From positions 1 to 26,482 of the IMG/VR virus record IMGVR_UViG_3300044824_000336: 26,482 bases of DNA. One strand, written 5' to 3'. The DNA comes from a virus. A program made the position numbers and the translations under genes. Positions 6,768 to 26,482 of the stretch are shown here, piece by piece (the first letter of the stretch is position 1; every line of letters begins with the position of its first letter). The notes under the pieces were generated by a model. The model saw nothing but the letters and a program-made list of their open reading frames with translations. It searched no databases and had not been told where the DNA came from.

Positions 6768-6783
6768 GCGTTTGGCCGTCTGG

Positions 6784-11452: not shown

Positions 11453-11453
11453 C

Positions 11454-11816
11454 TTAGGTCCTGTTTTGGCAGACGGTGAGCGTAGTTTCGCCCCGCATCT
11501 CACCTCTCAGTTGAAAACCGAATGTGTCACCGGTCAGGCTGCAGTTCGGATAGACCGTTCCGTCCCACGGATCGGTGAAGGAGAAGCTGCCGAATCTGCC
11601 CTCGTTCGATACGAAGAACCGATCTAATGCGGCAACTTCGGCTTCGTCCAGCAAATCGAGTTGTATTGTCCACCGATGCAGTACCGAAGGGTTGTCTCGA
11701 AACCGCTGCTCGGTACCGTCCAGAAAACGGATCGCGTTGGTGTTGAACAGCAGTGTCCTTTTCGCCGGATATTGCATCACGGCGCCGGTCTTTAGCGTCG
11801 GAAACATAGCCGTCAC
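11454..11816 (-). CDS. Small distal tail protein
   Basis: 120 residues. The GTG start overlaps the stop of the tape-measure candidate (GTGA); an ATG at 11807 is the alternative. The pattern WTIQLDLLDEAEVAALDRFF followed by FSFTDPWDG parallels the N-terminus of the next gene, so the two look like a duplicated distal-tail module. It lies between tape measure and hub, the classic place for a distal tail protein. No catalytic features. Confidence 0.55.
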   Translation of the reverse strand: MTAMFPTLKTGAVMQYPAKRTLLFNTNAIRFLDGTEQRFRDNPSVLHRWTIQLDLLDEAEVAALDRFFVSNEGRFGSFSFTDPWDGTVYPNCSLTGDTFGFQLRGEMRGETTLTVCQNRT

Positions 11817-12394
11817 AGGTTCGCCACAACGTCATTGATGGAGTTCATGTTCAACATCGCCTGCCGGACCGCCTGTGCGATATCGTCGCTATGATCCAGA
11901 AACGACTGGCTGTCCATGGCTTGTACCTGGACCGTGATCTGCGGAACCGCGCTCGATCCGCCGCTTGCAACGGAACGCGGCAGACCGTTCTCGCCCCAGA
12001 CTACGTCTTGGCCGTTGGTAGTGGACTCGAGGTTCAGGGAAGGGGGGAGCGAAAAAGGCGCTAGGGGTGCGGGTTGTTGAGACTGTCCGCCGCCAAACAA
12101 ACTGGAAAACAACGATACCAGTGGCATGAGACTAAACCCGCCCCCCAGAAACTGGCTCGCCGTGCTGAGCACGTCTGAAACTTCCTTGCCGGGGCTGGAA
12201 CCCTGAGCTTGACTGCTTTGTGCCAGGGCATCAGTGTTAGCGGCGGTCGCCTGCGTCTGGGCATCGATCACTTGGGTGGATTTTCCAAGAGCGTCGATGA
12301 GACCCTGCTCGGCTGCTGCCGATTGGCCGCCCGCCGGGCTACCCGACGCTTGGTTGAAAGCGGTTAACAATGTCTGTTGTGACGTACTAGGCAT
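11813..12394 (-). CDS. Very short tape-measure candidate
   Basis: 193 residues from ATG at 12394, chosen for the upstream AGAGGGAAAA; the open frame runs further upstream to 12460. It follows the tail-chaperone pair directly, the invariant position of the tape-measure gene. The sequence is Gln/Ala/Ser-rich and probably helical at first (IDAQTQATAANTDALAQSSQ), then has one hydrophobic Gly-rich segment (about 100-125, GGGFSLMPLVSLFSSLFGGG), and ends in a small domain (ITVQVQAMDSQSFLDHSDDI). Tape measures of ordinary siphoviruses run to many hundreds of residues; this one is close to the roughly 220 residues of the RcGTA tape measure. If it is the ruler, the tail must be short. It might instead be an accessory tail protein. 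Confidence 0.5.
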   Translation of the reverse strand: MPSTSQQTLLTAFNQASGSPAGGQSAAAEQGLIDALGKSTQVIDAQTQATAANTDALAQSSQAQGSSPGKEVSDVLSTASQFLGGGFSLMPLVSLFSSLFGGGQSQQPAPLAPFSLPPSLNLESTTNGQDVVWGENGLPRSVASGGSSAVPQITVQVQAMDSQSFLDHSDDIAQAVRQAMLNMNSINDVVANL

Positions 12395-12422
12395 TTTTCC
12401 CTCTGGGCGCAGGACCGCTGCT

Positions 12423-12761
12423 TTAGCCTCTAGTGCCGGAGCCGCCGGCCGCCTCCGCAAGCTCCTGCTCTAAAACCAGAAAAGCTTCCACCGCGCGCGC
12501 CCCCAGACCTTCGATTCCCCTCTGCCCTAACTTGCGCCGCACAAGATACTCCTCGAGCCATGCCATGCTTTGTGCCGTGATAAACGATTTTGGACAGACG
12601 GTGGTCGCCGCATTGTTCCTCGCCCACACCACGCGCTCGGGCGCCGCTAGCGCCTGCGGTATCCAGCCGCACCTGCGCTTCATCTCCAGGCCGGCCTTAC
12701 GGCAAGTCGCGCACTCCCAGCCGGCCTGGTTGGAGAATTGGAAATGGAGTGCGACAATCAG
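12423..12761 (-). CDS. Tail-assembly chaperone -1 frame extension (T part)
   Basis: Frame entered from the upstream chaperone gene by -1 slippage at 12761-12767. It adds about 112 residues starting LIVALHF, giving a fusion of about 233 residues. The open frame extends upstream to 12791, but I see no good independent start. It contains a Cys pair and a third Cys (WECATC, then KRRCGW), a short helical segment (MAWLEEYLVRRKLGQRG) and an acidic end. In lambda-like phages the G-T fusion binds the tail tube protein while G coats the tape measure; the gene order here (tube, G, T, tape measure) is the same. Confidence 0.7.
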   Translation of the reverse strand: MIVALHFQFSNQAGWECATCRKAGLEMKRRCGWIPQALAAPERVVWARNNAATTVCPKSFITAQSMAWLEEYLVRRKLGQRGIEGLGARAVEAFLVLEQELAEAAGGSGTRG

Positions 12762-13123
12762 TTTTTTCTTTCGGCTTCCGGCAGCCCACACTGTTGCTTG
12801 ACAGCAGCCAAAGCCTCCCGGAACAGTTCTTCAGGTCCGTTCGCCGCCAGTGACTCCGGAGTCGCCGGCTGGCCGTCCAACTCGAGACCCGTGACTTCCT
12901 TCAAGCCCCAGAGCAGATAGATCCGATCGATCTCCGACGCCAGCAGCGCGGCTTCCATCTTTTCGTTGGGAGTGTCGCCCGCCTCCACGAACTCTTTCCG
13001 CGCCGCCAACTCCCGGATGCGGCGCGTCAACTCCACCCGGCGCCCAAATGACATCTTGGCGACCGTATAACTAACCCCAGGCGCGACAGTAGAATCTATG
13101 GTTTCAAAAGTCGAATATTCCAT
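12758..13123 (-). CDS. Tail-assembly chaperone (G part)
   Basis: 121 residues, mostly helical and charged (SFGRRVELTRRIRELAARKE, then EALAAVKQQCGLPEAERKN). It stands between the tail tube gene and the tape-measure candidate. Its last codons are AGA AAA AAC followed by TGA, so the gene ends in a perfect X XXY YYZ slippery site. Start ATG at 13123 has only a weak ribosome binding site. About 138 nt separate it from the tube gene, an unusually long gap for this operon and filled by repeats. The chaperone is made during assembly and is not expected in the mature particle. Confidence 0.7.
   Translation of the reverse strand: MEYSTFETIDSTVAPGVSYTVAKMSFGRRVELTRRIRELAARKEFVEAGDTPNEKMEAALLASEIDRIYLLWGLKEVTGLELDGQPATPESLAANGPEELFREALAAVKQQCGLPEAERKN
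12761..12767 (-). promoter_or_regulatory. Programmed -1 ribosomal frameshift site A AAA AAC
   Basis: On the minus strand the zero-frame codons are AGA AAA AAC TGA. The heptamer A AAA AAC is among the most efficient bacterial -1 slippery sequences. Slippage moves ribosomes into the frame that starts CTG ATT GTC and stays open to 12423. The stop codon adjacent to the heptamer may lengthen the pause. I did not identify a definite downstream pseudoknot. Confidence 0.85.
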
Positions 13124-13178
13124 CTGGACACCAACTCAAGCTCTTACTACTCATACTTGTAAGGCGCGCAATCTTGCC

Positions 13179-13199
13179 CCGGGGTCCCCTCTGGGGACG
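13179..13199. repeat. Hairpin repeat B, copy 3
   Basis: Arm CCGGGGTCCCC, loop TCT, then GGGGACG; stem positions 8 and 18 are C and G. It sits in the gap between the tail tube gene and the chaperone gene (13124-13261), the longest gap inside the operon after its first gene. No coding sequence is seen in the gap. Confidence 0.75.
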
Positions 13200-13223
13200 C
13201 CTTTTTGGGCGGCTTTCCCGGGG

Positions 13224-13236
13224 CCAGGGGTGGCTG
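13224..13236 (+). repeat. CCAGGGGTGGCTG motif next to repeat B
   Basis: Exact 13-nt reverse complement of 3060-3072. It stands about 25 nt from a repeat B hairpin, like the first copy about 7 nt from its own, so the pair is likely one composite dispersed repeat. Confidence 0.55.
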
Positions 13237-13261
13237 ACCCCGCTTTTGTAACGCGATAGTG

Positions 13262-14434
13262 CTATCCGAACGCCACCACAATCTCGTTGTCTGCCGTCCC
13301 CTGCGCCCTCGATCCTTGAAACTTCCATTGCAGCCTGTTATCGCTGTCGTCGAACTCAGGCACTACCGGCACCACGCTCATCATGTAGACGCCCATGACT
13401 TGGCCGGTTTGCTGGCCAAGTTGAAACATCACACTTACCGGCGACTGCTGCCGCGCCGCTTGGTACAGTCCTTGCGTCGCCGCATCGTCCAGTTCATACA
13501 GGCTAAAGGCCGCCGTCACGGATCGCGGCCCCGGCGCAACGGCTTGCGGCAGGTTGGTTCCAAATTCCTTCGACCGCGTATCCAGACCGTTGTCTAATTG
13601 GAATGTCCCGCTCGTGATCGTGTAGAACTTGCTGGGCGTACTGCCCAGCCAGGCCTCACCCATGTTGCCCGGCACGATCGAGTAGTCGAAGGCTCCAAGA
13701 GCCGGCTCCACGGGGAAGTTCCTCAGCTGTCCCATTCCGGCTGCGAAACTGGAACTGTCGATCAGGTCTTGCGCCATTCCCTCGAACTCAAACTGGTGAT
13801 AATCGCCATTCACCTTTACAGTCATCCGGTCTACTGCTGCCCCGCAGAGAATCCGCTGGAGCGCCGTGCTGGGATCCCAATAGTCGAAGATGCTTACGCT
13901 TGGCAATGCTGTCGCCGGAAAATAGGAAACGCTCGGAGCAATCTCGGTCCCCGCGGCCGGAGCGCTGGAGAATGGGGCGTTCACTTGCACGGCCGTCGCG
14001 CTCACGATTGCCGTGACAAACCGAATCTCGCCGTTACAGGACACGCCTTGCCCCGCCACGAGCCCATGTGGCGCCGCAAAGACCAGCGACGTGGCGCTGG
14101 AACCCGCCGCGGCCGCCCCTCCCGCGTACATCGTCGGAACGGCGCCCATGCTGGCCTGAAAAAGCGGACCATAAGATGGACCCGGATTCTGTCCTCCCCA
14201 GCTCGTCATGTAGGTTGTCACATCGAAACTGGTTGTGCGCCGCAGCCCCGCGGGTATTCCTACGAACGTCCGGCTGCCCGTCTTATCCCGCCGGTCGGCC
14301 TTCTCCAACTGATTCTTGGCGGTCAGTTTCACCGCCGGAAACCGGTTCTGCGCCGTGATCGCCGGCGTCTGTCCGTAGCTGTTTTCCAATCCCGTATAGA
14401 AACGGTTGGCATTGGATGAAATATACGAAGCCAT
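13262..14434 (-). CDS. Major tail (tube) protein
   Basis: 390 residues, ATG at 14434 with TAAGG upstream. The N-terminus (about 1-90) and C-terminus (about 200-390) look like a tail-tube fold: a paired beta domain with a receptor-like central helix segment (DYHQFEFEGMAQDLIDSS) and a conserved-looking end (RLQWKFQGSRAQGTADNEIV). Between them a Gly/Ala/Ser-rich module (about 105-165, SATSLVFAAPHGLVAGQGV) resembles the small Ig-like decorations often inserted in tail tube or tail-tip proteins. It lies between the terminator-like gene and the chaperones, as in most siphovirus tail operons. Confidence 0.65.
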   Translation of the reverse strand: MASYISSNANRFYTGLENSYGQTPAITAQNRFPAVKLTAKNQLEKADRRDKTGSRTFVGIPAGLRRTTSFDVTTYMTSWGGQNPGPSYGPLFQASMGAVPTMYAGGAAAAGSSATSLVFAAPHGLVAGQGVSCNGEIRFVTAIVSATAVQVNAPFSSAPAAGTEIAPSVSYFPATALPSVSIFDYWDPSTALQRILCGAAVDRMTVKVNGDYHQFEFEGMAQDLIDSSSFAAGMGQLRNFPVEPALGAFDYSIVPGNMGEAWLGSTPSKFYTITSGTFQLDNGLDTRSKEFGTNLPQAVAPGPRSVTAAFSLYELDDAATQGLYQAARQQSPVSVMFQLGQQTGQVMGVYMMSVVPVVPEFDDSDNRLQWKFQGSRAQGTADNEIVVAFG

Positions 14435-14438
14435 AGCC

Positions 14439-14933
14439 TTAGTCGCTTACTCCCACTTCGAAAGTGACCTTACCTACCTGGATGAAATTTCGTCCGCCAT
14501 GCTTCACGGGCCCTAAGGCCGCTTCATAGCATCCGGCGTAGTACATTCCTTCACCCCAGTCGCCCCGGTTCTGATCCAGCACCTGGGTCACAGCGTCGAG
14601 GTACACTTGGAGTTGATCCTCGATCCCCTCCAGTCTGTCCTGTGAAACCCTCACCTCAATCGCCATGATGCCCTTTCCGGAAAAGTTTCGGAACTTCTCC
14701 TTGAGCTGGTTCACGATCTTTTCGCAGTATACGTTGACCGCCGGATACTGCACGTCGGTGCTGCGCTCTGCCAGTTCAATCGATACGTTCTGCGCCAAAA
14801 TCTGATTCTGTCCGGCTGGCGGTAGAGTTATGTTCTCGGCCTGAGCTAGCGTTGATACGCAGGCGTTCAGCCCCTGCGGTGCGCTGAGGAGTGTGACTAC
14901 CTGCGCGGTGACCGTGCTGCCTACCCATGCCAT
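14439..14933 (-). CDS. Tail terminator / tail completion-like protein
   Basis: 164 residues, ATG at 14933 preceded by GAGAGG. Compact alpha/beta sequence with a central stretch (SIELAERSTDVQYPAVNVYC) and a C-terminal beta-strand (FIQVGKVTFEVGVSD). Its position between head-connector genes and the tail tube gene, with only 4 nt to the latter, fits a tail terminator that caps the tube before head joining. No diagnostic motif; the call is mainly positional. Confidence 0.5.
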   Translation of the reverse strand: MAWVGSTVTAQVVTLLSAPQGLNACVSTLAQAENITLPPAGQNQILAQNVSIELAERSTDVQYPAVNVYCEKIVNQLKEKFRNFSGKGIMAIEVRVSQDRLEGIEDQLQVYLDAVTQVLDQNRGDWGEGMYYAGCYEAALGPVKHGGRNFIQVGKVTFEVGVSD

Positions 14934-14936
14934 GCT

Positions 14937-15701
14937 TTAACCTCTCTGAATAACTCGCGGTAACGCCCGAAGATAGTCTGGCGCCTGGCCGCTCCCTGGC
15001 CCTTGTCCCAGAGTGGATACTGGCCCTGCCTGGACCCAAACTTGATCCAACGCTAGCGGCGACGTGTTTTGCAGCGCCATTGCCGTAGGCGACAGCCCTA
15101 CGTACACATTCCAGGCCGTTGCGTTGGCCGGTTGATTGACCGGCTGGGCCACTAGCGCATTCCCGGCCGCCACGGTAAGGGTGCTCGGATTACTGGCCTG
15201 CCCCTCCTCGCTCTCCATGTTCAGCCATGACACGCTCGCACAGTAGGTCATGGCCGCTTGACCGCCCGGAATGGACGTCAGTTGCGGCGGAGCTGCCTGC
15301 GGGATCGGGTCGGCTACGATGCCCAACCCGGTCTGAATGAGCTTGTCCATGGCCCACTTCGCCAGTTGCTGAAACTGGTCGCGCTTGCCCTTGTAACGGT
15401 CGTTCAGTTGATTGAAGTAGGCGTCCTGATAGGCCAGCATCAGGGTTTGGAACACGTGCCAAAGCTGCAGCGGCGGCGTGACCACGATGTTGTTCAACTG
15501 TGGGTCCGGTTGGAGCCAGAACTGCCAGTCGTAAGTGTTGCTGCGCTGCAGAAGGGTCATCAGTTCGATCCCCAGTTCTTGCTGTGCCAGCGCCAGTTTT
15601 TGACTCAGATCGATGTTCTCCGTCTGCGCTGTGGCCAGCACGGAGGAGTCCTGGCCCATGAGATCCTGGATCGTCGATATTCCATCCGTGAATAGCGCCA
15701 T
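14937..15701 (-). CDS. Head-tail connector-like protein with fibronectin-like C-terminus
   Basis: 254 residues. The first about 130 are predicted helical, with helices around ENIDLSQKLALAQQELGIEL and LQLWHVFQTLMLAYQDAYF, as in head-tail adaptor proteins. The last about 100 (ATAWNVYVGLSPTAMALQN) look like a fibronectin III module, the same style as in the tail hub. An adaptor carrying such an appendage is not standard. The gene lies 3 nt before the terminator-like gene. The function is inferred from position. Confidence 0.45.
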   Translation of the reverse strand: MALFTDGISTIQDLMGQDSSVLATAQTENIDLSQKLALAQQELGIELMTLLQRSNTYDWQFWLQPDPQLNNIVVTPPLQLWHVFQTLMLAYQDAYFNQLNDRYKGKRDQFQQLAKWAMDKLIQTGLGIVADPIPQAAPPQLTSIPGGQAAMTYCASVSWLNMESEEGQASNPSTLTVAAGNALVAQPVNQPANATAWNVYVGLSPTAMALQNTSPLALDQVWVQAGPVSTLGQGPGSGQAPDYLRALPRVIQRG

Positions 15702-15713
15702 TGTCCCGGCCGC

Positions 15714-16040
15714 CTACTCTTTGCCCGGCTGTGCGCCGCCCTTCAGCTTGCGTAGCTCATTGGGCGAAATGACCGCGAACTGCATGCGCGACGCCGCCGC
15801 GAGTTGATCCGCCTGCCGCTTCGCCTCCGCCTTCTGATCTTGGAACTCGCGCGCTTCCTCGGTCGTCGCCAGCCGCGCGCCGCCTTCCACAATCATCTTT
15901 GCCGCGATTCGCCGCGGAACTTCGGTGCGCACTCCTTCCCGTCCGCCATCCGGAGTCTCGAGGCTGACCAACACTGCCGAAGGGTCTCTTAGGCTTTCCT
16001 CCAGCGCCCGAATTTTCTTGTAATAAACTTGTAAGTCCAT
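15714..16040 (-). CDS. Small conserved head-region protein, function unknown
   Basis: 108 residues, charged and probably helical, with a coiled-coil-like stretch (TTEEAREFQDQKAEAKRQAD). It lies between the coat protein and the connector-like gene, 12 nt before the latter. The start is ATG at 16040 with a weak AAGAG upstream. Not recognised as a known family; a head-completion or neck role would fit the position only. Confidence 0.55.
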   Translation of the reverse strand: MDLQVYYKKIRALEESLRDPSAVLVSLETPDGGREGVRTEVPRRIAAKMIVEGGARLATTEEAREFQDQKAEAKRQADQLAAASRMQFAVISPNELRKLKGGAQPGKE

Positions 16041-16116
16041 GGTTATCTCTTGTGGGGCCGGGCGTACCCGGCCCCCTTTCCTGGTTGTCCGCCTGAGTGC
16101 AGTTTCGCTTGTGGCG

Positions 16117-17028
16117 TTAAGTATTCACCTGGACGCCAAAGTTGTTGCGGATCACCGCGCAGCCGTACAACACGTCTACCGTGAACTGCTGAGCCAATGT
16201 ATTCGGCTGGTAGCTCATCACTACCCGCATGCCGAAGTTCCCCATCTCCGCGTAATGCGCCACTGCGCCCGTGCCGTACAACGGCTGCGGCAGTCTCCGG
16301 ATGACCAGGCCGATCGCGGGCTTGGTGAAAGCGAGGTTGTGCGTCGTTAACGGCGAGCTGCCGGTAGTCGCGACATACTGCGACCGCATCACGAAGAAGT
16401 CCTTGATCTTCCCCACCGCGCCGTCGATCAAAGCCCGCAGTCCCGCCTCGCCGGCGGTCTGGAATTCGCTGAAGCGTTCGATCTGCCGCAATTGCGAATA
16501 TGTTGCGGCATCCACAACCAGGTATTTCGGCTCCGACGGCGGAACCTTCGCCGTAAACAGACCGCTTTCTGCCTGATCGATCACCGCTTCCACCAGCGGT
16601 GTCCCCGGCGTGCCCACCGGCGTGTTCGCCGTAAACCCGGCAAACAGGTTCAGCAGGCTTGTCTCGATGCTCTCGGCTATCGCCACCACCGCCGGTTGCA
16701 TGTAGACCTGCAGTAAGTCGGGAACCGCCAGCACCTTGGTCACGTCCGGAATCTGGAAAGTCGCTTCGGCGTGCATGTTCAGCACGATCTGCGCATTCCC
16801 CAGGTTCGGGTTCTGCGGTTGAACTTGTCCGCCTTCGGCTATGTTGTTGGCTACCAGCACTGGAGGAATCGGGATGTTCACCGTATCCCCGGCCTGCGCC
16901 AAAACAGGTTCATAATCGCGGTTGACCAGGTTACCCATGACTAGGTTCCCGACCAAGGCGGGCAGAGCGTCTGCCGCCACCAGCTTCACAATCGCGCTGG
17001 CCACATTAGCTGATGTAATTGTCGCCAT
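16117..17028 (-). CDS. Major coat (capsid) protein, P22 gp5-like
   Basis: 303 residues, ATG at 17028 after TAGGAGATTGA. The N-terminal pattern (SAIVKLVAADALPALVGNLV, then GDTVNIPIPP) and the middle (VVDAATYSQLRQIERF, then GAVGKIKDFFVMRSQYV) resemble P22-type HK97-fold coat proteins. No capsid protease is seen next to it, which fits this coat class with its separate scaffold. It forms the icosahedral shell. Two palindromes stand in the 68-nt gap just upstream of its ribosome binding site. Confidence 0.75.
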   Translation of the reverse strand: MATITSANVASAIVKLVAADALPALVGNLVMGNLVNRDYEPVLAQAGDTVNIPIPPVLVANNIAEGGQVQPQNPNLGNAQIVLNMHAEATFQIPDVTKVLAVPDLLQVYMQPAVVAIAESIETSLLNLFAGFTANTPVGTPGTPLVEAVIDQAESGLFTAKVPPSEPKYLVVDAATYSQLRQIERFSEFQTAGEAGLRALIDGAVGKIKDFFVMRSQYVATTGSSPLTTHNLAFTKPAIGLVIRRLPQPLYGTGAVAHYAEMGNFGMRVVMSYQPNTLAQQFTVDVLYGCAVIRNNFGVQVNT

Positions 17029-17042
17029 TCAATCTCCTAAGT

Positions 17043-17090
17043 GGAACAGGCTCTTTTGCCTGTCCTTTTGAAATCAGGCATTTCTGCCTG
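17043..17090. repeat. Two CAGGC/GCCTG hairpins between scaffold and coat genes
   Basis: Bases 17043-17065 fold around ACAGGC and GCCTGT. Bases 17075-17090 are CAGGCATTTCTGCCTG, a 6-bp stem with TTTC loop. Both share the CAGGC...TT...GCCTG core of the repeats in the RNase E/G gene, with a base change on both arms. They lie in the 5' leader of the coat gene, where they might stabilise or separate that message, or they may simply be dispersed repeats. Confidence 0.6.
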
Positions 17091-17096
17091 TTGTGC

Positions 17097-17648
17097 CTAT
17101 ATGCCGCGCAGGTTCTGCGAAGCAACGCGCAGAATCTCCTTCCGCGCCCGTTCCATTTCTTCCGGACTCATTCCCGGCCGGATGCCCTCCAGGTCCACGC
17201 TCTCGGTGCTTTCCCGCGGCGCCTTGTGCGCGGCGGTGATCCCCGATCCTCCCGGTATCCTTGCCGGCAGAAACTCTGGATTCTCGCTCACGAAGTTGCT
17301 CAAATATTCTTTGAGTGGCACTTCGCCTTCGTCGCTGTGCGCCAGCAGCCGGCCGTCCTCCGTGCGGAACACGCCGTCTTGCACCGCCCGGTATGCCAGG
17401 TCGACCTTCGCAATCCCCAGCCGTTGTAGCTCCGCCCGTATGGCCGAGCTTCTCTCCGCCTGTTCCGCCGCCTGCCGGCTGCGCTTGCTTTCATCTTCTA
17501 CTTCGTTCAGCCGCCGCTCCAGTTGCTCCCGGCGTTTGCGTTCCTCCGCCAGTTCCGTCTTGTAAGCCGGTTCGCTCTTGGCCTGCTGCTCCTGAAGAAA
17601 CTCCTGAATTGCCTGCTTGACAATCGCTTGTACGTCTGCGTCTTCCAT
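17097..17648 (-). CDS. Scaffold-like protein
   Basis: 183 residues from ATG at 17648, preferred over a GTG at 17681 because AGAGGTGG lies just before it and the longer start would run into a hairpin repeat. Residues about 10-75 form a charged coiled coil (EERKRREQLERRLNEVEDES). The C-terminal part has helix-forming acidic/basic sequence ending MSPEEMERARKEILRVASQN. Length, composition and location between portal and coat match a phage scaffolding protein, which fills the procapsid and leaves on maturation. Confidence 0.65.
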   Translation of the reverse strand: MEDADVQAIVKQAIQEFLQEQQAKSEPAYKTELAEERKRREQLERRLNEVEDESKRSRQAAEQAERSSAIRAELQRLGIAKVDLAYRAVQDGVFRTEDGRLLAHSDEGEVPLKEYLSNFVSENPEFLPARIPGGSGITAAHKAPRESTESVDLEGIRPGMSPEEMERARKEILRVASQNLRGI

Positions 17649-17670
17649 GACCACCTCTTTTCCCTGATGT

Positions 17671-17726
17671 GGCACACGCACTCATGCGCGCACTCGTGCG
17701 TGCCGGGTCGAGACTCGTCTCGACAC
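17671..17726. repeat. Tandem hairpin repeat (CACTCGTG family), copy 2
   Basis: Bases 17671-17704 hold GCGCACTCGTGCGTGCC-type palindromes. Bases 17707-17724 are GTCGAGACTCGTCTCGAC, a perfect 7-bp stem with CTCG loop. Same two-hairpin layout as 2661-2704. It sits in the gap between the portal and scaffold genes. Confidence 0.75.
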
Positions 17727-17730
17727 GTCT

Positions 17731-19101
17731 TCATCCCTGGTTTTCAATCTCCTCCGCAATCTGAGTCTTGATCTCCTGCCGTACGTCCGACAGAAACTTG
17801 AACGCCAGTTTCTTGAAAACCTGTTTCTTCAGCGTCTCTGATTCGATCCCCAAACTAAGCAGCTTCCCCGCGTCGTCCAGTTCATTGCTGAAATCGGCGA
17901 TGTCAAACTCGTCTAGCCCGGAAACATCGATCGAAATGTTGTCCTGGCGCGCCGCCGCGATCGCTCGCAGGACCTGCTTCATCGTTTCCTTCACCGCGTC
18001 GCCGTACGCCCGCAGCACTTCCTGTGTGATGCTGAAATCCCTCTGCTTGCTGGCACCCGATTGGTGCTGGCTCGATGAATCCGACCCGGCCGCGTGCGTA
18101 ATCAAATAGCACACCCTGTAAATCTCGTCTTTGAGCTGGATCAGATTGTCGGCGGCAATCTGGTAAACCTTGCCTTCCGGCTCGGTCCACCCGAAGCGGT
18201 CCCCCGGCGCCAGTTGGATAAAATAGGACTCGCCCACGATCTGGTTCCACTCACGCTCCGAGTAGATCACCGGAGAGGCGAACAAACCCATCGTCAGCGC
18301 CCAGGAAAGCGCGTTCGACTTGTTGAAGTGCTCCAGTTGCAGCAGTGCCGCCTTGTTCATCAACCAAAGTCCTTCGGTCACGCGCAACTGGAAAATCGGC
18401 ACCCGGTCCTGGCCGGCCAGCCCGTGCACTCCTTCATCCACCAGCCGCACTTCTTTGTTCTTCAGTTGCTGATAGACTTGATAGTTCTGCCGGTCGTAGT
18501 AGATCCAGCGGGTCTCGCGAACCCATTCGCTCTCGGTGACCTTGGACTTGCGGAGCGCCGAGGTCCGGATCACCGCCCATTCCAACCCCCCGTGATCGTC
18601 GTAACTCCAGTTAATAAGTTCCTCTGGCGAGTAATCCACCAGATACGCCCGCGAGCGTCCCACGGCATCCTCTTCCGCGCGGTTACTGGCCGAAAGTTGC
18701 GATCGTGGAAAATCCACTACGATGTGACTCCGCCCCTGCACTAGCGTTTGTACGATCCGCTGGCGGAAGAACTCCGCTATGGATGTGCCCTTCAGGTCGC
18801 AATCCTCCGCGAATAGGTTGTAGAAGTCTTTTGCCCCGTCGTCGTTGCCGTCGAACAGCAGAGCCGCCTCGCGCCGCATCAACGTCGCCGCGTACCAGTC
18901 GATAATCGAGCCGATATAGTTCTCGTAGAACACTCGGCTCAACCGCTCGGCATAGATATCGTTGGGCTCCTTGTGCCGCCTGATCAGATACTCGAAGGCG
19001 TTCTCCCGCATCTGCTCGCCGCCGGCGTAAAGATCCCTGTACTTCTTCCACATCGCTTTCTTGGCGGCATACTCGGGATGCTCTCGATCGATGTTCACCA
19101 T
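17731..19101 (-). CDS. Portal protein (DUF4055-like)
   Basis: 456 residues, ATG at 19101 after TGAGGA. Starts MVNIDREHPEYAAKKAMWKK and has a helical N-terminus (RLSRVFYENYIGSIIDWYAA), a mixed middle, and a C-terminal helical part (LDDAGKLLSLGIESETLKKQ) typical of portal wing and crown helices. It follows the terminase gene with a 7-nt gap. The portal is the dodecameric DNA gate at one capsid vertex. The DUF4055 link is from memory; the portal role is supported by order and size. Confidence 0.7.
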   Translation of the reverse strand: MVNIDREHPEYAAKKAMWKKYRDLYAGGEQMRENAFEYLIRRHKEPNDIYAERLSRVFYENYIGSIIDWYAATLMRREAALLFDGNDDGAKDFYNLFAEDCDLKGTSIAEFFRQRIVQTLVQGRSHIVVDFPRSQLSASNRAEEDAVGRSRAYLVDYSPEELINWSYDDHGGLEWAVIRTSALRKSKVTESEWVRETRWIYYDRQNYQVYQQLKNKEVRLVDEGVHGLAGQDRVPIFQLRVTEGLWLMNKAALLQLEHFNKSNALSWALTMGLFASPVIYSEREWNQIVGESYFIQLAPGDRFGWTEPEGKVYQIAADNLIQLKDEIYRVCYLITHAAGSDSSSQHQSGASKQRDFSITQEVLRAYGDAVKETMKQVLRAIAAARQDNISIDVSGLDEFDIADFSNELDDAGKLLSLGIESETLKKQVFKKLAFKFLSDVRQEIKTQIAEEIENQG

Positions 19102-19108
19102 CTGGTCC

Positions 19109-20413
19109 TCAAATCAGCCGCTCCTGGTGTTCGCCGATCCCCGGCTGCGGTCTGCATTCCTGCCACAACAGGTAACCCAGTGCGTCCGAAAGATGGGTCC
19201 TGCGGCGATCCTTCTCCTTGTCGATTGCGTTGCTGTCCGCTTTGTACGACACCTGCTCGAAATCCTTAATCAACTCCTTGCACTTAGGGTCCGCCAGCAG
19301 CCGTATCTCGCCGCTCGCCGAGCGCAGCTTCGCGTTAGTCAGCATGATCCGTTCCCGCACGCTCGGGTTGGCTTTGGGCACCTTATACGTCACCCGCGCG
19401 CCGTAATTCATGCGGAAGTACTCGCGCACGATCTGGTAATCCGAGGCGCCCGTGGTGTGCTGGCTGTTCCCCGATGCGTCGCCGTATATCACAACTCCGC
19501 TTCTGTGATTGGGAAATTGCCTTTCAAACTTCTCGCAGGCTTCATGCGTGCTGGCGTGCCGCAGCGCGATTTCGTCGAGCACGAATACGGTCCGGCCCTC
19601 GATTTGCGCCACTACCGAAGACATCGGGTCCACGTTGAAATCCAACGCCCACAGCAGCGGACAATTTGGGTTGACCTGCAGGTTCTTCACATGGTCGCGG
19701 CGGTTGAAGGCGCTATATACAAGTCCGCCTTCGAGGCTCAGGTACTGCCCAAGCGCTTCCTGCTGATAAAAGGTCTCATCGTAGCTGTTCTTCAATCGCT
19801 CGTAGAAGTCTGGAACCTTCTCGAGCAGGTACCGGTTCTCGTGAGGCTTCGCGATGATCGCGCTGTATCCTGGAACCGGTTCCGCGATGAATTTCTGATA
19901 GACCCAGTCGTAGCCCTTCGGCGTCCACGCGGCGAAGCCGCAAAGTAGCTCGGCTTGCGGGTCTCGAAGCCGTCCCTCCAGCCGCAACCAGGCCCCTTCT
20001 GGCGAATAAGTCAGCTCATCGAGTCCAAACCAAGCCAGATTTGTGCCGCGCAGCCGCTCAAAGTCGTCCACCGGTCGGAAGATGATGCGCGAACCGCTGT
20101 ATTTCATCGTGAGCATGTTCTCGGCCTTGTTGTATTGGTACGGGAGATCCATGCTGTCCAAAAGTGCAAACAACGTCGTCTGCGTGGCATCGCGCAACAT
20201 CGGATAAGTCGGCGCGCCGATCAGCCCCAGTTTGCCCTGGTTTTGGCAAGAGAGTTTGATCGCCTCAAAGCAAAGTGCCTGGCTTTTGCCGGAAGCGACA
20301 GGTCCGGAAAAACCCTTGAATCGCGATGTGCAGTCGTGAAAGGCCTTTTGTGAAGGAAGCGCGTCATAGACTATGTCTTTCCCGAGGATTCCGTCCTGTC
20401 CGATTCTATCCAT
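19109..20413 (-). CDS. terL: Terminase large subunit
   Basis: 434 residues; DNA-packaging motor with ATPase and nuclease domains. Walker A GPVASGKS at residues 37-44, Walker B LAWFGLDE with D132 and E133, and an RNase H-like nuclease domain with D258 in WALDFN, D280/E281 in FVLDE and D312 in IYGDAS. All key residues look present, so the motor may be functional. ATG at 20413 lies inside the preceding small gene, a 43-nt overlap that suggests coupled translation. Confidence 0.85.
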   Translation of the reverse strand: MDRIGQDGILGKDIVYDALPSQKAFHDCTSRFKGFSGPVASGKSQALCFEAIKLSCQNQGKLGLIGAPTYPMLRDATQTTLFALLDSMDLPYQYNKAENMLTMKYSGSRIIFRPVDDFERLRGTNLAWFGLDELTYSPEGAWLRLEGRLRDPQAELLCGFAAWTPKGYDWVYQKFIAEPVPGYSAIIAKPHENRYLLEKVPDFYERLKNSYDETFYQQEALGQYLSLEGGLVYSAFNRRDHVKNLQVNPNCPLLWALDFNVDPMSSVVAQIEGRTVFVLDEIALRHASTHEACEKFERQFPNHRSGVVIYGDASGNSQHTTGASDYQIVREYFRMNYGARVTYKVPKANPSVRERIMLTNAKLRSASGEIRLLADPKCKELIKDFEQVSYKADSNAIDKEKDRRRTHLSDALGYLLWQECRPQPGIGEHQERLI

Positions 20414-20580
20414 CGCACCCTGACTTCGCGCGGTTCGTCTGCATCCAGTTCTTTCTCGATTTGCAACAATCGCACTAGGTCCGCCAACGTCGGTTTCATC
20501 GCGCCCGTTCCCAGCTTCGCCTCGATGCTCTCTATCGCTTTCCTGACGATCCGTGCTCTGTGCTTCTGTGGTCCTGTCAT
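20371..20580 (-). CDS. Small protein before terminase, possible small-terminase-like
   Basis: 69 residues from ATG at 20580 (MTGPQKHRARIVRKAIESIE), with TAGGG upstream; a TTG at 20586 is possible. Basic, probably helical N-terminus and an acidic C-terminus. First gene of the head-tail operon and overlapping terL. The position suggests a DNA-recognition partner for the terminase, but it is shorter than typical small terminases and has no motif I can name. Confidence 0.5.
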   Translation of the reverse strand: MTGPQKHRARIVRKAIESIEAKLGTGAMKPTLADLVRLLQIEKELDADEPREVRVRWIESDRTESSGKT

Positions 20581-20696
20581 CCGCAAGCCCTATTCCCGAT
20601 TTGAGACTAACATCCGCGGTTTCGTGCCCGGACTGCGACTGTGGGCTAAGTGACAGATTTTGAACGTGCAGATTATGTTTCTCGACGTGTGACTCG
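20581..20696 (-). other. Leader upstream of the head-tail operon
   Basis: About 115 nt between the operon's first start codon and the left inverted repeat of the mobile element. It must hold the operon promoter if one is local, but I see no convincing -35/-10 pair and no operator palindrome. The element insertion may have removed the native control region. Confidence 0.35.
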
Positions 20697-20709
20697 TTTA
20701 CCGGCCAAT
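20697..20709 (+). repeat. Left inverted repeat of the mobile element
   Basis: TTTACCGGCCAAT. Reverse complement of 24518-24530 apart from one base. A second GGCCAAT follows at 20788-20794 in the same orientation, so several recombinase binding sites may sit at this end. Confidence 0.6.
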
Positions 20710-20778
20710 ATCAGGTTCCGGATTCTGGGCGGTAGAAGGTGAGGCGTTTCTTCCAGATGGATCTGTGATTCAGTAGGG

Positions 20779-20833
20779 GGCGAAGGCGGCCAATCGGACA
20801 ACGTTCGCGCGGTGATCCAGAAGGGCCTTCGCC
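20779..20833 (+). promoter_or_regulatory. Inverted repeat upstream of the element's first gene
   Basis: GGCGAAGGC (20779-20787) and GCCTTCGCC (20825-20833) are perfect 9-nt complements separated by 37 nt, ending 6 nt before the GTG start at 20840. It could form a leader hairpin hiding the start, or be a protein-binding site at the element end. Confidence 0.4.
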
Positions 20834-20839
20834 ACCGCA

Positions 20840-21310
20840 GTGATTGTATTTATCGCATGGAATCACGCCGAAGGCAAGCCTGGCGAGATGGTTCGCATTT
20901 GTCCGGCATGCCAACAGGCTTCCGTCATTGGGCATGGATGGCGTGGCCGTCCGGCCCATGATGCGAAGCATACCCAGATCCGCATTCATCGCGGAATCTG
21001 CAAATTCTGCGACCTGACTCTGACCATGCTGCCATGCTGGCTGGTTCCCGGCGGGCACTACAGCCTCGCCGCCCGCCAACAGGCCGAACATCTGGTCACT
21101 GAGCAAGAACGGCCCCCGGAGCAATGTGTCCCCGACGGCGCCGGCGAGAAGCGTTACGCGGATCCCTGCACGGTGCGGCGCGGGTTCCAGCGCCGGCTGG
21201 AAAGTCTGTGGCTGTGCCTCGCCGGGAGGTGGCCGCGGCCACCCACCCTGTTTGCCTGGGATTGGAAGGCGGCCCATCGTATTCTGATTCCGGAGGCCAA
21301 CTCGGCATGA
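20840..21310 (+). CDS. Zinc-ribbon protein of the mobile element
   Basis: 156 residues from GTG at 20840; ATG at 20888 is an alternative just before the zinc ribbon. Four cysteines (C21, C24, C54, C57; CPAC and CKFC) form a likely zinc ribbon in a block with HGW and HYSLAARQQ, reminiscent of DUF6431-type proteins found beside recombinases (recalled, not checked). The C-terminus has FAWDWKAAHRILIPE. It is probably DNA-binding and might recognise element ends. Its stop overlaps the next start (ATGA). No nuclease motif is visible. Confidence 0.65.
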   Translation: MIVFIAWNHAEGKPGEMVRICPACQQASVIGHGWRGRPAHDAKHTQIRIHRGICKFCDLTLTMLPCWLVPGGHYSLAARQQAEHLVTEQERPPEQCVPDGAGEKRYADPCTVRRGFQRRLESLWLCLAGRWPRPPTLFAWDWKAAHRILIPEANSA

Positions 21311-22293
21311 ACTGCGAGCAACGACAGCACCTGCGGCGGAGGATTCCGCTGCTCACGTACCTCAAACAACAAGGATGGAAACCAACCGCGTACAGCGAGT
21401 CCGACGAGGTGTGCGGATTGTGCCCGTTGCATCGCGACAGCCGGCCCTCCTTCTATGTCAACCGTCGCAAGGACGTGTTCTACTGCCATGGATGCGGACA
21501 AGGAGGCGATGTGGTCCGGCTGGCGGAACTGCTCCACGGGCTGAGCTTCCAGAGAGCGCTGGCCACACTCATGGGGCCGGAGGAGGGAAACGGAGGACGT
21601 CTTTGGAGCGATGTTTGCGACTTCTACCGGCATCAGCTCCGGCGCAGCCTCGAGGCCCAGAGCTATTTGCGCAGCCGGGGGATTGAGTCCCCGGCGGTGG
21701 TGGACCGGATGCGCATCGGCTATGCGCCCGGCGGCTGCCTGCGAGCCTATCTACAAGATCTGGGTTATACGCGCGCAGCCATGGTCTCCAGCGGGCTCAT
21801 CGATGCGCAAGGCCGCGACCGGTTGTGGCAGGCGATTACGTTTCCGATCGCAGAGACGGCCAGCCTGTACGGCCGCCATACCGGCCCCGCTGCCGGTCGT
21901 CACCGCTTTCTGGCACGTCCCAAAGGAGGACTCTACGGATGGGACCGCGCCCGATGTGGCCGGACGGTGATCGTGGTGGAGGGATTGTTCGACCTGGCTT
22001 CGCTGTGGCAAGCCGGATTCACCGAGGCGGTCGCCTTGCTGGGCAGCCATTTCAATGCGCGGCAGCAGGCCCAGTTATGCGATGGGCGGCCGCGGACCGT
22101 GTACTTATGCCTGGACGCCGATGAGAACGGCAGTGGCCCGCGCGCCGCGCGGTTGTGGAGTCGACGGCTGGAACAAACCGGGGTGCGCCTGTTGCCGGTC
22201 GAGTTGCCAGGCGGATACGATCCCAACCGCTTCTTTGCCGAGGGCGGCAGCGCAGCGCAGTTCTCCCGCTATCTGGAGCAAGCCGGCCGATGA
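21307..22293 (+). CDS. DnaG-like CHC2 zinc finger/Toprim protein
   Basis: 328 residues from the coupled ATG at 21307; a longer open frame upstream is disregarded because of the ATGA overlap. The CHC2 finger has C39, H42, C60 and C63, the same spacing as in DnaG. The middle part resembles the DnaG N-lobe. The Toprim core has E225 in VIVVEG and D270/D272 in LCLDADENG, the metal-binding acidic residues of primases. It lacks the C-terminal helicase-binding domain of cellular DnaG. It may make primers or bind single strands during element movement; alternatively it only borrows the fold for DNA binding. Catalytic residues look intact. Confidence 0.8.
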   Translation: MNCEQRQHLRRRIPLLTYLKQQGWKPTAYSESDEVCGLCPLHRDSRPSFYVNRRKDVFYCHGCGQGGDVVRLAELLHGLSFQRALATLMGPEEGNGGRLWSDVCDFYRHQLRRSLEAQSYLRSRGIESPAVVDRMRIGYAPGGCLRAYLQDLGYTRAAMVSSGLIDAQGRDRLWQAITFPIAETASLYGRHTGPAAGRHRFLARPKGGLYGWDRARCGRTVIVVEGLFDLASLWQAGFTEAVALLGSHFNARQQAQLCDGRPRTVYLCLDADENGSGPRAARLWSRRLEQTGVRLLPVELPGGYDPNRFFAEGGSAAQFSRYLEQAGR

Positions 22294-23354
22294 AATTCCT
22301 ACTGCAGCGCCGTGGGGATGTGGGCGCCAGCGCGTCGCCCTACCGCGTGGTGGAACAAGACGGCGGCGAGATTGCCTGGGTCAACCGCTTTCTGGATATG
22401 CAACGGGTGCGCGGGCTGAACGAGTTTTCCCTGCGCTATTACGGACATCTGCTCCTGCACTTTATCCGCTGGTGGGCCAAGCAGCCGGATGTGGATGTGA
22501 TGCGCCTGGACGCGCAGGCATTCACCGAATCGACGCTCATCGACTATGTGCGGGCCCAGCGGGAGGAGTTGCCCAAGCTCTCTCCGGAAACCATCAATAG
22601 CCGCTCGGCGATGCTGCGGCGCCTGTTCCGGTTTCACTTCCAGGTGGAGATGCCGCATGGCCCTTACCGGTTGCAGCGCGTCTGGTGGACACCACCCGGC
22701 GGGCGTCATCGCAGAGGCAGGAGTGCGGGGGCCGCAGATCTGCGGCTGAAGGTGCCGCCCCGCGTCATCGAGCCGTTGTCGGTGGAACAGGTCGCCAGGT
22801 TCTGGTACAGTTTTCGCACGGCGCGCGACATTGCCGTGGTGGGTTTGTTGTTGCTGAGCGGGTTGCGATCGTGCGAGGTCCTGGCGCTGGAACTGGAAGA
22901 TCTGCTGCTGAGCGAAGCGCAGTTGCGGGTGCGGGGCAAAGGGGGGAAGGTGCGGATGATGCCGTTGCCGCCGGAAACCATCCGCTTGCTGGATGGCTAC
23001 CTGAAGACGGAGCGTCCCCTGACCAACGCGGCGCAGGTGTTTGTCAGTCTCAAAGGGAAAGCGCGCGGCCAGCCCGTGACCAAAGATGGGTTGCGCAGCC
23101 TGTTCCGCCACCACCGCGCCTTGACCACCATCCAGAAGGCCAATCCGCACCGGGCCCAGAGGGCACCCCGGCACACCTTCGGTAGTGACATGATTCGCGC
23201 TGGCGTCAGTCTTCCCGCTCTGCAACGATTGATGGGCCACGCCAACATCGAGACGACTCTGCTCTATATCCAGATCAGCCCGCAGGACGTTTATGAGGAA
23301 TATGCCCGGGCCGTCGCCAAGCGGGTGGCTCCGGCGCGCATCGCACAACCATGA
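22290..23354 (+). CDS. Tyrosine recombinase 1, with altered HxxR box
   Basis: 354 residues from the coupled ATG at 22290 (MKFLLQRRGDVG). The N-terminal SAM-like core-binding domain is about 35-140. Catalytic residues: R193 in SGLRSCE, a Lys in GKGGKVRMM, H317 in LMGHAN and Y326 in LLYIQ. The HxxR box is unusual: relatives read PHRxRHTF, but here H287 and R294 are separated by extra residues (HRAQRAPRHTF), a 4-residue surplus encoded inside a 22-nt palindromic repeat at 23150-23171. This probably weakens or kills strand cleavage, since the His and Arg must both contact the scissile phosphate. Ends with an ATGA overlap to recombinase 2. Confidence 0.85.
   Translation: MKFLLQRRGDVGASASPYRVVEQDGGEIAWVNRFLDMQRVRGLNEFSLRYYGHLLLHFIRWWAKQPDVDVMRLDAQAFTESTLIDYVRAQREELPKLSPETINSRSAMLRRLFRFHFQVEMPHGPYRLQRVWWTPPGGRHRRGRSAGAADLRLKVPPRVIEPLSVEQVARFWYSFRTARDIAVVGLLLLSGLRSCEVLALELEDLLLSEAQLRVRGKGGKVRMMPLPPETIRLLDGYLKTERPLTNAAQVFVSLKGKARGQPVTKDGLRSLFRHHRALTTIQKANPHRAQRAPRHTFGSDMIRAGVSLPALQRLMGHANIETTLLYIQISPQDVYEEYARAVAKRVAPARIAQP
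23150..23171. repeat. Hairpin repeat B inside recombinase 1
   Basis: Twenty-two bases, arms CCGGGCCC and GGGCACCCCGG around AGA. Identical to the reverse complement of 26201-26222. Variable stem bases are a C-G pair read on this strand. It covers the codons between catalytic H287 and R294. Confidence 0.85.
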
Positions 23355-24511
23355 AGCCGACCGAGCATCCTTTACAGAAAGCGCTGGAAGCGCGGGTCCG
23401 ATTGTTGGAAACCACCTTGCAGCCTTCCACGGTGAAACAGTACCGGCGCACGGTCCGGCTGTTTCTGGGGTACTTGAGCCAGAATTTCCCGGAGGTCCAC
23501 AGACCCTCCCAATTACGCCGCGATCCGCATGCGCTGGGCTGGTTGGAGTATCTGTGGAAACTGCGTACCCCCACGGGCAGCCCGCTCGACAGCAGCACGC
23601 GCGGTCAGCATGTGTTGCGGTTGCGCACGCTGTTGGATCTGCTGGCGGATTTGCCGCAACCACCGCGGCCTGGCTTATTGTGCGGCCCGGATGTGCCCCC
23701 GCGCCAGTATCGCCTGCCGCGGCCTTTGACTCCCGAGGATGACGCGCGCCTGCAACAGCATTGGACCGCCGCCACGGATGTTCTCAGTAGCGCCCTGCTG
23801 CTGCAGCGTTTGACCGGCATGCGGATTGGAGAATGCGTGGACCTGGCGCCCGATTGTCTGCGCCATCTGGGCGACAACCGCTGGAGCTTACATGTGCCGC
23901 ATGGCAAGCCGCGCAGCGAACGCTGGGTTCCGGTGGACGACCCGGTGCGCGTGGTGATCGAGCGTCTCACCTTCCTCCGCACACTGCCACCGGCGGCCGA
24001 TCCGCAGTTCCTTTTGGCGCGGCCCAAAGGCCGCGACGTGCTGCTCGCGTCGCTGCGTCAAACGTTGTGCGACGCCGCCGCACAGGTGGGGATCCAGGCG
24101 CACCTGGTTCCGCATCAGCTCCGCCATAGCTACGCCACTACTATGCTGCGTGCGTGCGTCAGCTTACCCGCCTTGATGAAACTGCTGGGCCATCACAATG
24201 CCAACATGACCCTGCTGTATGTCGAGGTCACCCAACAGGACTTGCAGCGCGAGTATCGCGCGGCGCGCCTCCAGCCCCGGCACCATATGCCGGTTCCTCC
24301 GGCCCTCCAATGCGGCATCCCGCCGACTTCTGCCGCCGACGCCACGGCTGTCGAGGCCGCCCTCCATGCCGTTCTCCGACTTATGAACCTGTATCGCCAG
24401 CTCTTGGCCCCGTCCAGCGCAAATAAACAGATCCTTCTGTTATCCCGGCGCCTCACCCGTATCCGCAGCCTCTTTGAAAAGCTCAGCCAGGAGCCTGCCG
24501 GAGAAAAATAG
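23351..24511 (+). CDS. Tyrosine recombinase 2
   Basis: 386 residues from the coupled ATG at 23351. Full catalytic set: R158 in TGMRIGE, a Lys in HGKPRSERWV, H255 and R258 in PHQLRHSY, H281 in LLGHHN and Y290 in LLYVEV. The N-terminal core-binding domain is about 5-110. A C-terminal extension of about 80 residues beyond the catalytic domain (about 305-386) ends in a charged helix (LSRRLTRIRSLFEKLSQE), possibly for contact with the partner recombinase. It is clearly different in sequence from recombinase 1, so this is not a recent duplication. The two may act as a heterotetramer like XerC/XerD. Confidence 0.9.
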   Translation: MKPTEHPLQKALEARVRLLETTLQPSTVKQYRRTVRLFLGYLSQNFPEVHRPSQLRRDPHALGWLEYLWKLRTPTGSPLDSSTRGQHVLRLRTLLDLLADLPQPPRPGLLCGPDVPPRQYRLPRPLTPEDDARLQQHWTAATDVLSSALLLQRLTGMRIGECVDLAPDCLRHLGDNRWSLHVPHGKPRSERWVPVDDPVRVVIERLTFLRTLPPAADPQFLLARPKGRDVLLASLRQTLCDAAAQVGIQAHLVPHQLRHSYATTMLRACVSLPALMKLLGHHNANMTLLYVEVTQQDLQREYRAARLQPRHHMPVPPALQCGIPPTSAADATAVEAALHAVLRLMNLYRQLLAPSSANKQILLLSRRLTRIRSLFEKLSQEPAGEK

Positions 24512-24517
24512 GTATAG

Positions 24518-24530
24518 ATTGGCCAGTAAA
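24518..24530 (-). repeat. Right inverted repeat of the mobile element
   Basis: ATTGGCCAGTAAA, starting 7 nt after the stop of recombinase 2. Pairs with 20697-20709 in inverted orientation with one mismatch. Confidence 0.6.
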
Positions 24531-24540
24531 TGACTGAAGA

Positions 24541-24625: not shown

Positions 24626-26482
24626 CTATCCCCGGCGAAACCCGATTCGGTCCGCCAGATAGAAGTGTACGGTCGGCGTCACCACCAGCGACAGAACCAT
24701 CGACGCCAGTATGCCGCCGATCACCGCGATCGCCAGCGGCTGCAGCATCTGCGATCCCGCGCCCCATGCCAGCGCCAGCGGAATCATGCCGGCCACCGTC
24801 GCCAGCGCCGTCATCATGATGGGCCGCAACCGCCGCTCGCCCGCGCGGATCATGCTCTCTTCGGCCGGCGTCCCCTCGCCGCGGAACTTCTGGTCCGCGT
24901 CCAGCAGCAGGATGCCGTTCTTCGCCACGATCCCGATCACCATGATCAAACCCATGAACGAAGAGATATTGAACGTCGTCCCTGTCACCAGTAGTGCCAG
25001 AAAAACGCCCGAAGTGGAAAGCACCGCCGACGAAAGAATCGCCACCGGCGCCGCGAAGCTGCCGAATTCGAACAACAATACGATGAACACCAGCAACACC
25101 GCCAGCACCAGCACGAACACTAAGTCCCGGAATGACCGTTGCTGCTCTTCGTACCCGCCCCCATAGGCCACCCGGATCCCCGCCGGAAGACCCAGTCCAT
25201 TAACGGCCTTCTGCACGGCCGCCATGCCCGCGCCCAGATTCAGCCCCTCCAGGCGCGCCGTCACCGCCACATCGCGTTGCAGGTTCTCACGGCGGATCTC
25301 AGTTTGCCCCGGTTCTTCCGTCGCGTCGGCCAGCGTTCCGAGCGTGCCCGTCTTCCCGCTGGAACTCACCAGCAGCGTATTCCGGATCGCCTCCAGCGAT
25401 GCCCGCCTCTGCTCTGGAAAACGCACGCGGATGGTGTAGGCCCGGTCGTTCACCACCGCCGGCGTGGGCGCCGGCTCCCCTTGCAGAATGACACTCGTGT
25501 CCAGTTCGACTTCCTGCGGCGTGAACCCCGCGCGCGCCGCCACACCCGGATTCACCTGAAACACCAACGCCGGGCCGCTAATCGTGTTATCGATGCCGTT
25601 CAGCACGTCTACCACGCCGGGGATCTTCTTGATGGCATCCGCCACCTTCGGCGCCCATTCCCGCAGCACCGCCGGATCTTGCGAAAACAGTTTAATCAGG
25701 ATTGGCTCGGGCGCATTGGTAAGATCGCCGATCATGTCTTGCAGTAACTGCGGGTACTCCACTTCCAACATGGGCGCCTGCTTGGCAACCTTGGCGCGCA
25801 CTTCCGCCACCACCTCCTCGGCGCTGCGGCCGCGCTTGCGTTTGAGCTTCACCGAGATATCGCCTCGATTGGCCTCCGTGACCGCCGCCAGCCCCAGTTG
25901 CAACCCGGTTCGCCTGGAGGTGCTCTCCACCTCCGGCGTCGCGCGCAGGATGCCTTCCACCGCCGATACTGTGCGGTTGGTATCGTCCAGCGACGAACCC
26001 GCCGGCATCAGATAGTCCACGATGAACCCGCCCTCATCCATGCCCGGCAGCAGGTCCGAACCAAGCGCCCGATAGCACAAATAGGAGCCCGCAATCACCG
26101 CCAGGCTGAACGCCGCAAACGCCAGCGGGTGCTCCAGCATGCCGCGCAGCACCCGCTCGTAAACCCGCATCACCCGCCGCGGAACGCCTTCCCTTCCCGC
26201 CCGGGGTGCCCTCTGGGCCCGGATGAAATAGTGGCTCAGCGTCGGCGTCCACGTGAGCGCCAGCGCCAGCGACGTCATCAGCGCCACCCCCACCGTGAGC
26301 GCCAGCGCCCGAAAGAATACGCCGGTCACGCCCGTAATCGAAATCAGCGGCAGGAAGACTACGATGGGGGTGATGGTCGATCCCACCAGCGGCGCGCGAA
26401 TCTCCCGAATCGCGCTGCGAATGGCTTCGCCGCGCGTCTGGCCCGCGTCCCGATGCGCCACGATATTCTCCACCACCACAAT
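24626..26482 (-). CDS. RND efflux permease, C-terminal part
   Basis: About 618 residues of an inner-membrane resistance-nodulation-division proton antiporter; the 5' part lies beyond the window. The first visible residues (IVVVENIV) belong to transmembrane helix 4, which in full proteins lies near residue 400 of about 1040. Next come helices 5-6 (ITPIVVFLPLISITGVTGVF), a cytoplasmic loop, helix 7, the second periplasmic domain (GMDEGGFIVDYLMPAGSSLD) and the final helix bundle (FGSFAAPVAILSSAVLSTSG, then GIVAKNGILLLDA). It would work with a membrane-fusion protein and outer-membrane channel, not seen here. It could be a drug (HAE1) or metal (CzcA-like) pump; the sequence shown does not settle this. 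A palindromic repeat adds residues in the loop before helix 7. Confidence 0.9.
   Translation of the reverse strand: MVVVENIVAHRDAGQTRGEAIRSAIREIRAPLVGSTITPIVVFLPLISITGVTGVFFRALALTVGVALMTSLALALTWTPTLSHYFIRAQRAPRAGREGVPRRVMRVYERVLRGMLEHPLAFAAFSLAVIAGSYLCYRALGSDLLPGMDEGGFIVDYLMPAGSSLDDTNRTVSAVEGILRATPEVESTSRRTGLQLGLAAVTEANRGDISVKLKRKRGRSAEEVVAEVRAKVAKQAPMLEVEYPQLLQDMIGDLTNAPEPILIKLFSQDPAVLREWAPKVADAIKKIPGVVDVLNGIDNTISGPALVFQVNPGVAARAGFTPQEVELDTSVILQGEPAPTPAVVNDRAYTIRVRFPEQRRASLEAIRNTLLVSSSGKTGTLGTLADATEEPGQTEIRRENLQRDVAVTARLEGLNLGAGMAAVQKAVNGLGLPAGIRVAYGGGYEEQQRSFRDLVFVLVLAVLLVFIVLLFEFGSFAAPVAILSSAVLSTSGVFLALLVTGTTFNISSFMGLIMVIGIVAKNGILLLDADQKFRGEGTPAEESMIRAGERRLRPIMMTALATVAGMIPLALAWGAGSQMLQPLAIAVIGGILASMVLSLVVTPTVHFYLADRIGFRRG
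26201..26222. repeat. Hairpin repeat B inside the RND gene
   Basis: Arm CCGGGGTGCCC, loop TCT, then GGGCCCGG; identical in reverse complement to 23150-23171. On the coding strand it encodes RAQRAPR, the same peptide as in recombinase 1, here in a cytoplasmic loop after helix 6 (SHYFIRAQRAPRAG), where extra residues should be harmless. Confidence 0.85.

Follow-up and report, generated by a model that had tools for sequence, protein, structure and literature searches.

What are the four genes that lie on the plus strand between a packaging cluster and an RND efflux gene in the DNA analysed here, and why should so small a set include a primase? The window, by which we mean the whole stretch of DNA analysed, is an entire IMG/VR contig of 26,482 bases. 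Judging from our recognition of the proteins, the host is probably a soil-dwelling member of the Acidobacteriota. Judged from sequence, the four genes quite probably constitute a cargo-free, site-specific Tn554-like transposon with a TnpA/TnpB-type pair of tyrosine recombinases; the features concerned are listed in the table.

Features of the window (positions in bases; + and - are strands of the contig)
Feature	Position	Strand	Remarks
RNase E/G gene	1-2460		
Group II intron maturase, C-terminal fragment	3288-3752		Between RNase E/G and packaging cluster
Head-and-tail packaging cluster (terminase, portal, scaffold, P22-like coat, tail proteins)	4011-20586	-	
Left spacer, TGACTCG	20690-20696	+	Between host DNA and left repeat; compared with empty sites L019, L017, L043, L050
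Left terminal inverted repeat, TTTACCGGCCAAT	20697-20709	+	Same end in L011, L018, L020, L105
Subterminal hairpin, GGCGAAGGC (20779-20787) ... GCCTTCGCC (20825-20833)	20779-20833	+	Directly before first start codon
DUF6431 zinc-ribbon protein, 156 aa, GTG start	20840-21310	+	PF20020; homologues in L011, L014, L018
Short DnaG-like primase, 328 aa	21307-22293	+	CHC2, DNAG_N, Toprim
TR1, TnpA-type tyrosine recombinase, 354 aa	22290-23354	+	Phage_integrase, 79 bits
TR2, TnpB-type tyrosine recombinase without N-terminal extension, 386 aa	23351-24511	+	Phage_integrase, 76 bits
Right terminal inverted repeat, ATTGGCCAGTAAA	24518-24530	+	
Right spacer, TGACTGA	24531-24537	+	Identical to empty-site spacer in L019, L050
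RND efflux gene	24626-26479	-	Beyond right end of element

A sequence-only reading of this DNA had proposed a strict tandem of a zinc-ribbon protein, a CHC2/Toprim primase and two tyrosine recombinases (TR1 and TR2), each stop codon overlapping the next start as ATGA. Open reading frames and Pfam matches bear out the gene set, and the overlaps are present at all three junctions in the window and, identically, in a second copy (L011). The first protein matches PF20020 (DUF6431) with 27.7 bits against a cut-off of 26.6, and is a probable DNA-binding accessory protein. The primase matches the CHC2 zinc finger (53.6 bits), DNAG_N (28 bits) and Toprim_2 (49 bits), and among solved DnaG primases its profile matched 2au3 with an E value of 1e-37; it has the CHC2 zinc finger, core, Toprim domain and conserved ligands and acidic residues of the DnaG type, the zinc ligands and acidic residues being invariant between the window and L011. 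Its sequence stops after Toprim, without the helicase-binding C-terminal domain of full primases, and it misses the DnaG equivalog cut-off (134 against 284 bits). In the comparison with L011 the catalytic residues of the recombinases and the primase are conserved. AlphaFold models of the primase and the zinc-ribbon protein were poor (mean pLDDT ~51) and were left unused.

The element spans positions 20690-24530 (3.84 kb). The 13-bp inverted repeats that had been proposed to flank the genes, matching at 12 of 13 positions, were found, the left one 130 bp ahead of the first gene and the right one 6 bp past the last stop codon. Of 300 first-order Markov shuffles of both flanks, two produced a comparable pair, so taken alone the pair is only moderately significant; we regard the repeats as real because the same left end recurs in L011, L018, L020 and L105. 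Matches to the inverted-repeat pattern in L102-L104, L106, L107 and L111-L115 showed no gene of the element and were put down to chance. In the left non-coding region, the DNA fold of 20690-20839 has a z score of -3.0, and a hairpin core, GCGAAGGC/GCCTTCGC, is common to five copies (window, L018, L011, L014 and L105) when these are read side by side. An automatic consensus fold did not recover the hairpin, and we therefore treat it as a lead only; it might protect the start codon or be of use to the primase.

To place the ends against their target, terL was used to gather 80 loci of the packaging cluster (L016-L095). Four of these (L017, L019, L043 and L050) are clean empty sites, in which the RND gene directly adjoins the upstream side of the terS leader and the element is missing. 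On the window plus strand the empty site of L019 reads CGTG-TGACTGA-AGGGCGG, the left junction of the window CGTG-TGACTCG-TTTACCGGCCAAT and its right junction ATTGGCCAGTAAA-TGACTGA-AGAGCGG. The insertion is therefore exact; the right spacer is identical to that of the empty site and the left differs from it at two of seven bases. Just outside the two repeats is a 5-bp direct repeat, TGACT (20690-20694 and 24531-24535), which the earlier reading did not mention. On the junctions alone, a 5-bp target duplication would fit this repeat too, but tyrosine recombinases are not known to produce duplications of that kind.

Every copy found in the viral contigs lies at one target, GTCAC(A) or a decayed form of it, ~280-310 bp before terL of the 16-kb phage-like packaging cluster; it reads TGAC(T) on the plus strand of the window and AGTCACA on the opposite strand. 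At the same distance upstream of terL, near 20690 in the window, is a leader, GTCACACGTCGAGAAATATAATCTGC..., that is strongly conserved across the cluster loci, while the DNA preceding it changes completely. The genes upstream of GTCAC also differ: RND in the window and the four empty loci and, by reading of the DNA, a galE-like gene in L016, a signal-peptidase-like gene in L041 and a transposase-like gene in L053. These differences place the site at the leader's upstream edge; the leader may be a promoter or the end of the packaging cluster. The sequence-only reading had named in advance an outcome that would count against mobility, namely the same genes in a fixed chromosomal place without the inverted repeats. 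The place is indeed fixed in the viral contigs searched, but the repeats are present and empty sites exist.

A second full set of the four genes was found in L011 (L011, L013, L015 and L160 are one contig carrying all four genes). It has the same genes, order, 4-bp overlaps and left end, at 51-63% protein identity to the window. A degenerate PALMKLLGH pattern had led to L011 and L012, and alignment scans added L014 and re-found L011. The other copies are partial: L018 has the left end and part of the first gene; L020 has ~90 bp of the left end followed by unrelated DNA; L014 has the first gene and part of the primase, with a decayed repeat; L105 and L109 have the left end, L105 also the start of the first gene. 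In L012 a TR2-like relic is followed by a similar end, ATTGGCCGGATAAACG, beside a Y2 transposase fragment and ~1 kb from an intact empty CAGTCACA. The insertions in L011, L014 and L105 have similar flanks, and to judge from the sequences may be inherited. Between L011 and L014, dN and dS are 0.051 and 0.542 for the primase gene (dN/dS ~0.1) and 0.115 and 0.625 for the zinc-ribbon gene; the low primase dN relative to dS indicates that purifying selection is keeping the primase functional in that sister lineage. These observations bear on the idea that the four genes are tandem remnants of different mobile elements brought together by chance, an idea that might be encouraged by the variability of the sequence before GTCAC and by the TR2-like relic beside a Y2 transposase fragment in L012. 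A second copy with the same genes, order, overlaps and left end refutes it, purifying selection between L011 and L014 stands against it as well, and we regard it as scarcely credible. The exact ends and inverted repeats, together with the clean empty sites and a further copy of all four genes, support the earlier view of the four genes as a mobile element, and its remark that cargo is absent is true of both copies that could be read throughout.

Further searches bear on the distribution of the element. Close-relative scans of viral contigs with queries P0002 and P0004 returned nothing, a single scan of genome contigs, with the primase as query, gave host DnaG only, and a TR1 profile at E 1e-30 had no match in 398 genomes of one other phylum. 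Among plasmids and phages no four-gene set was recognised, only distant TnpA/TnpB-type or other recombinases and DnaG-like primases, and no primase-bearing Tn554-like element was found among the open-access papers searched. Among the viral contigs no copy was seen at a second, unrelated target, all being before terS; movement to new places is therefore a supposition.

The constant company of the packaging cluster raises the question of whether the four genes belong to it. The cluster lies between host genes in the window and is a candidate gene transfer agent or domesticated prophage. A related terL is encoded in at least 516 viral-contig stretches, and many contigs have terL at their very start and a length of 16.1-16.6 kb. 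A look for RNase E/G in 20 packaging-cluster records found none, a result without weight, since most of these records are trimmed to the cluster itself. The four genes might serve a prophage for integration and replication, with the neighbouring cluster supplying its structural genes, and be situated at the prophage end beside a host gene. All copies found stand directly before terS, and the scanned cluster open reading frames had no integrase or replication match, a gap that recombinases and a primase would fill. But the inverted repeats enclose the four genes and not the cluster, clusters with the same RND flank do cleanly without them, the remaining loci that have a long stretch before terL showed no element protein there, and the recombinases are of the transposon (TnpA/TnpB) type; we think this explanation unlikely. 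Integrase and primase are also the core of satellites such as P4, and the element could be a small phage satellite exploiting the packaging cluster. It lies exactly at the start of the conserved leader, and its 3.8 kb would fit a small particle; as a minimal satellite of a domesticated, gene-transfer-agent-like cluster it would home to the leader, bring its own second-strand primase and perhaps ride in the cluster's particles. The element has no packaging, capsid-resizing or regulatory gene, though, and particles made by the cluster are a supposition, and we consider such a satellite distinctly improbable.

The preferred reading, that of a Tn554-like transposon, is in keeping with the closest relatives of the recombinases. 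The best match of TR1 is the TnpA-type protein of a Rhodococcus Tn554-like element (35%, E 2e-50), and TR2 best matches the C-terminal region of the TnpB-type partner (E 1e-39), aligned from TnpB residue 133 or later with the N-terminal extension absent; the order of TR1 and TR2 is that of TnpA and TnpB in the Rhodococcus elements. With the Tn554 family (Tn554, Tn553/Tn552-II and actinobacterial relatives) the element shares TnpA- and TnpB-type recombinases in that order, imperfect terminal inverted repeats and, as far as the one target seen suggests, target specificity, and with the Tn552-II circle a 7-bp spacer. It differs in lacking TnpC/DUF6262 (no TnpC-type DUF6262 match was found by Pfam among the four proteins), the TnpB extension and cargo, and in adding a DUF6431 protein and a primase, whereas Rhodococcus-type elements in L007 and L008 have a DUF6262 (TnpC-type) gene with no primase or DUF6431 gene listed alongside. 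The earlier description as insertion-sequence-like therefore needs amending: this is not a generic insertion sequence, having a Tn554-type TnpA/TnpB pair and one conserved target in every copy found.

Other small elements resemble it in part. Strand-biased circularizing elements (SEs) likewise have four conserved genes, for at least two tyrosine recombinases and accessory proteins, as well as inverted repeats that flank a short spacer, and preferred targets (PMC10214605); they have IntA, Tfp, IntB, Srap and a 6-bp spacer, while the cargo-free window element has Pfam-identified DUF6431 and primase proteins and a spacer that reads as 7 bp. RIT elements, of ~3.5 kb, share tandem recombinase genes overlapping by a few bases and terminal inverted repeats (PMC3414803), but have three recombinases against two here; the window element has 13-bp repeats and primase and zinc-ribbon genes. 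The marks of IS91, a Y2/HUH transposase and Zn_Tnp_IS91, were both absent from the matches of the four proteins. In another phylum, 87 of the 398 genomes have a DUF6431 match above the cut-off. In one genome with 12 matches, the four examined (L146-L149) sit in a 3.33-kb repeat, at least 99.8% identical, that encodes the DUF6431 protein, an rve transposase, an AAA ATPase and a small ORF. These transposons, like the window element, encode DUF6431 first in a short transposition operon, but a DDE (rve) transposase and an AAA ATPase replace the recombinases and primase; DUF6431 therefore looks like a transposition accessory used with different enzymes. We note separately three tandem, RIT-like tyrosine recombinases at L157:816-3442, beside a DUF6431-DDE transposon.

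How might such an element move? For Tn552-II, a relative of Tn554, a circle with a 7-bp spacer has been sequenced, the spacer being mainly that of the left flank, and the study's authors suggest that the circle is replicated from a single-stranded form (PMC12486829); SE circles were found as nicked double strands and are thought to arise by copy-out (PMC10214605). We infer a circular intermediate, single-strand movement, and binding of ends or target by the DUF6431 protein. Single-strand exchange would free or copy out one strand, and the element ends would join in a circle as ATTGGCCAGTAAA-TGACTCG-TTTACCGGCCAAT, with 13-bp arms and a 7-bp spacer. The element primase would begin second-strand synthesis, and the circle would insert at TGAC(T), at the upstream edge of the packaging-cluster leader, with the DUF6431 protein, in the role of TnpC, bound to ends or target. 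The earlier suggestion that a primase implies a single-stranded or replicative step agrees with the Tn552-II (PMC12486829) and SE (PMC10214605) models. Against the single-strand route, SE circles are nicked double strands and not single strands (PMC10214605), and against the role of the primase, a host primase could do the priming; that the element's own enzyme starts second-strand synthesis on a copied-out strand we hold to be an evenly balanced proposition.

The copy in the window may itself be damaged at TR1. Its HxxR motif carries a net insertion of 12 bp (window PHRAQRAPRHTFG, L011 PHRFRHTFG), in which 14 other bases replace the two expected between CCGG repeats. The resulting 22-mer, 23150-23171, recurs without a mismatch on the reverse strand of the neighbouring RND gene (26201-26222), and it was not found in L019, L043 or L050. 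The pattern suggests either a templated insertion at CCGG microhomologies or an artefact of assembly.

For Tn554-type and related elements, movement by single-stranded copy-out with subsequent replication is a proposal, and a primase beside the same recombinase pair would offer a natural test of it: should the enzyme prove necessary once the strands have been exchanged, the single-strand route would gain direct support. Were our reading true, primases would join the parts list of very small transposons, and DUF6431 would be a part common to tyrosine-recombinase and DDE transposons.
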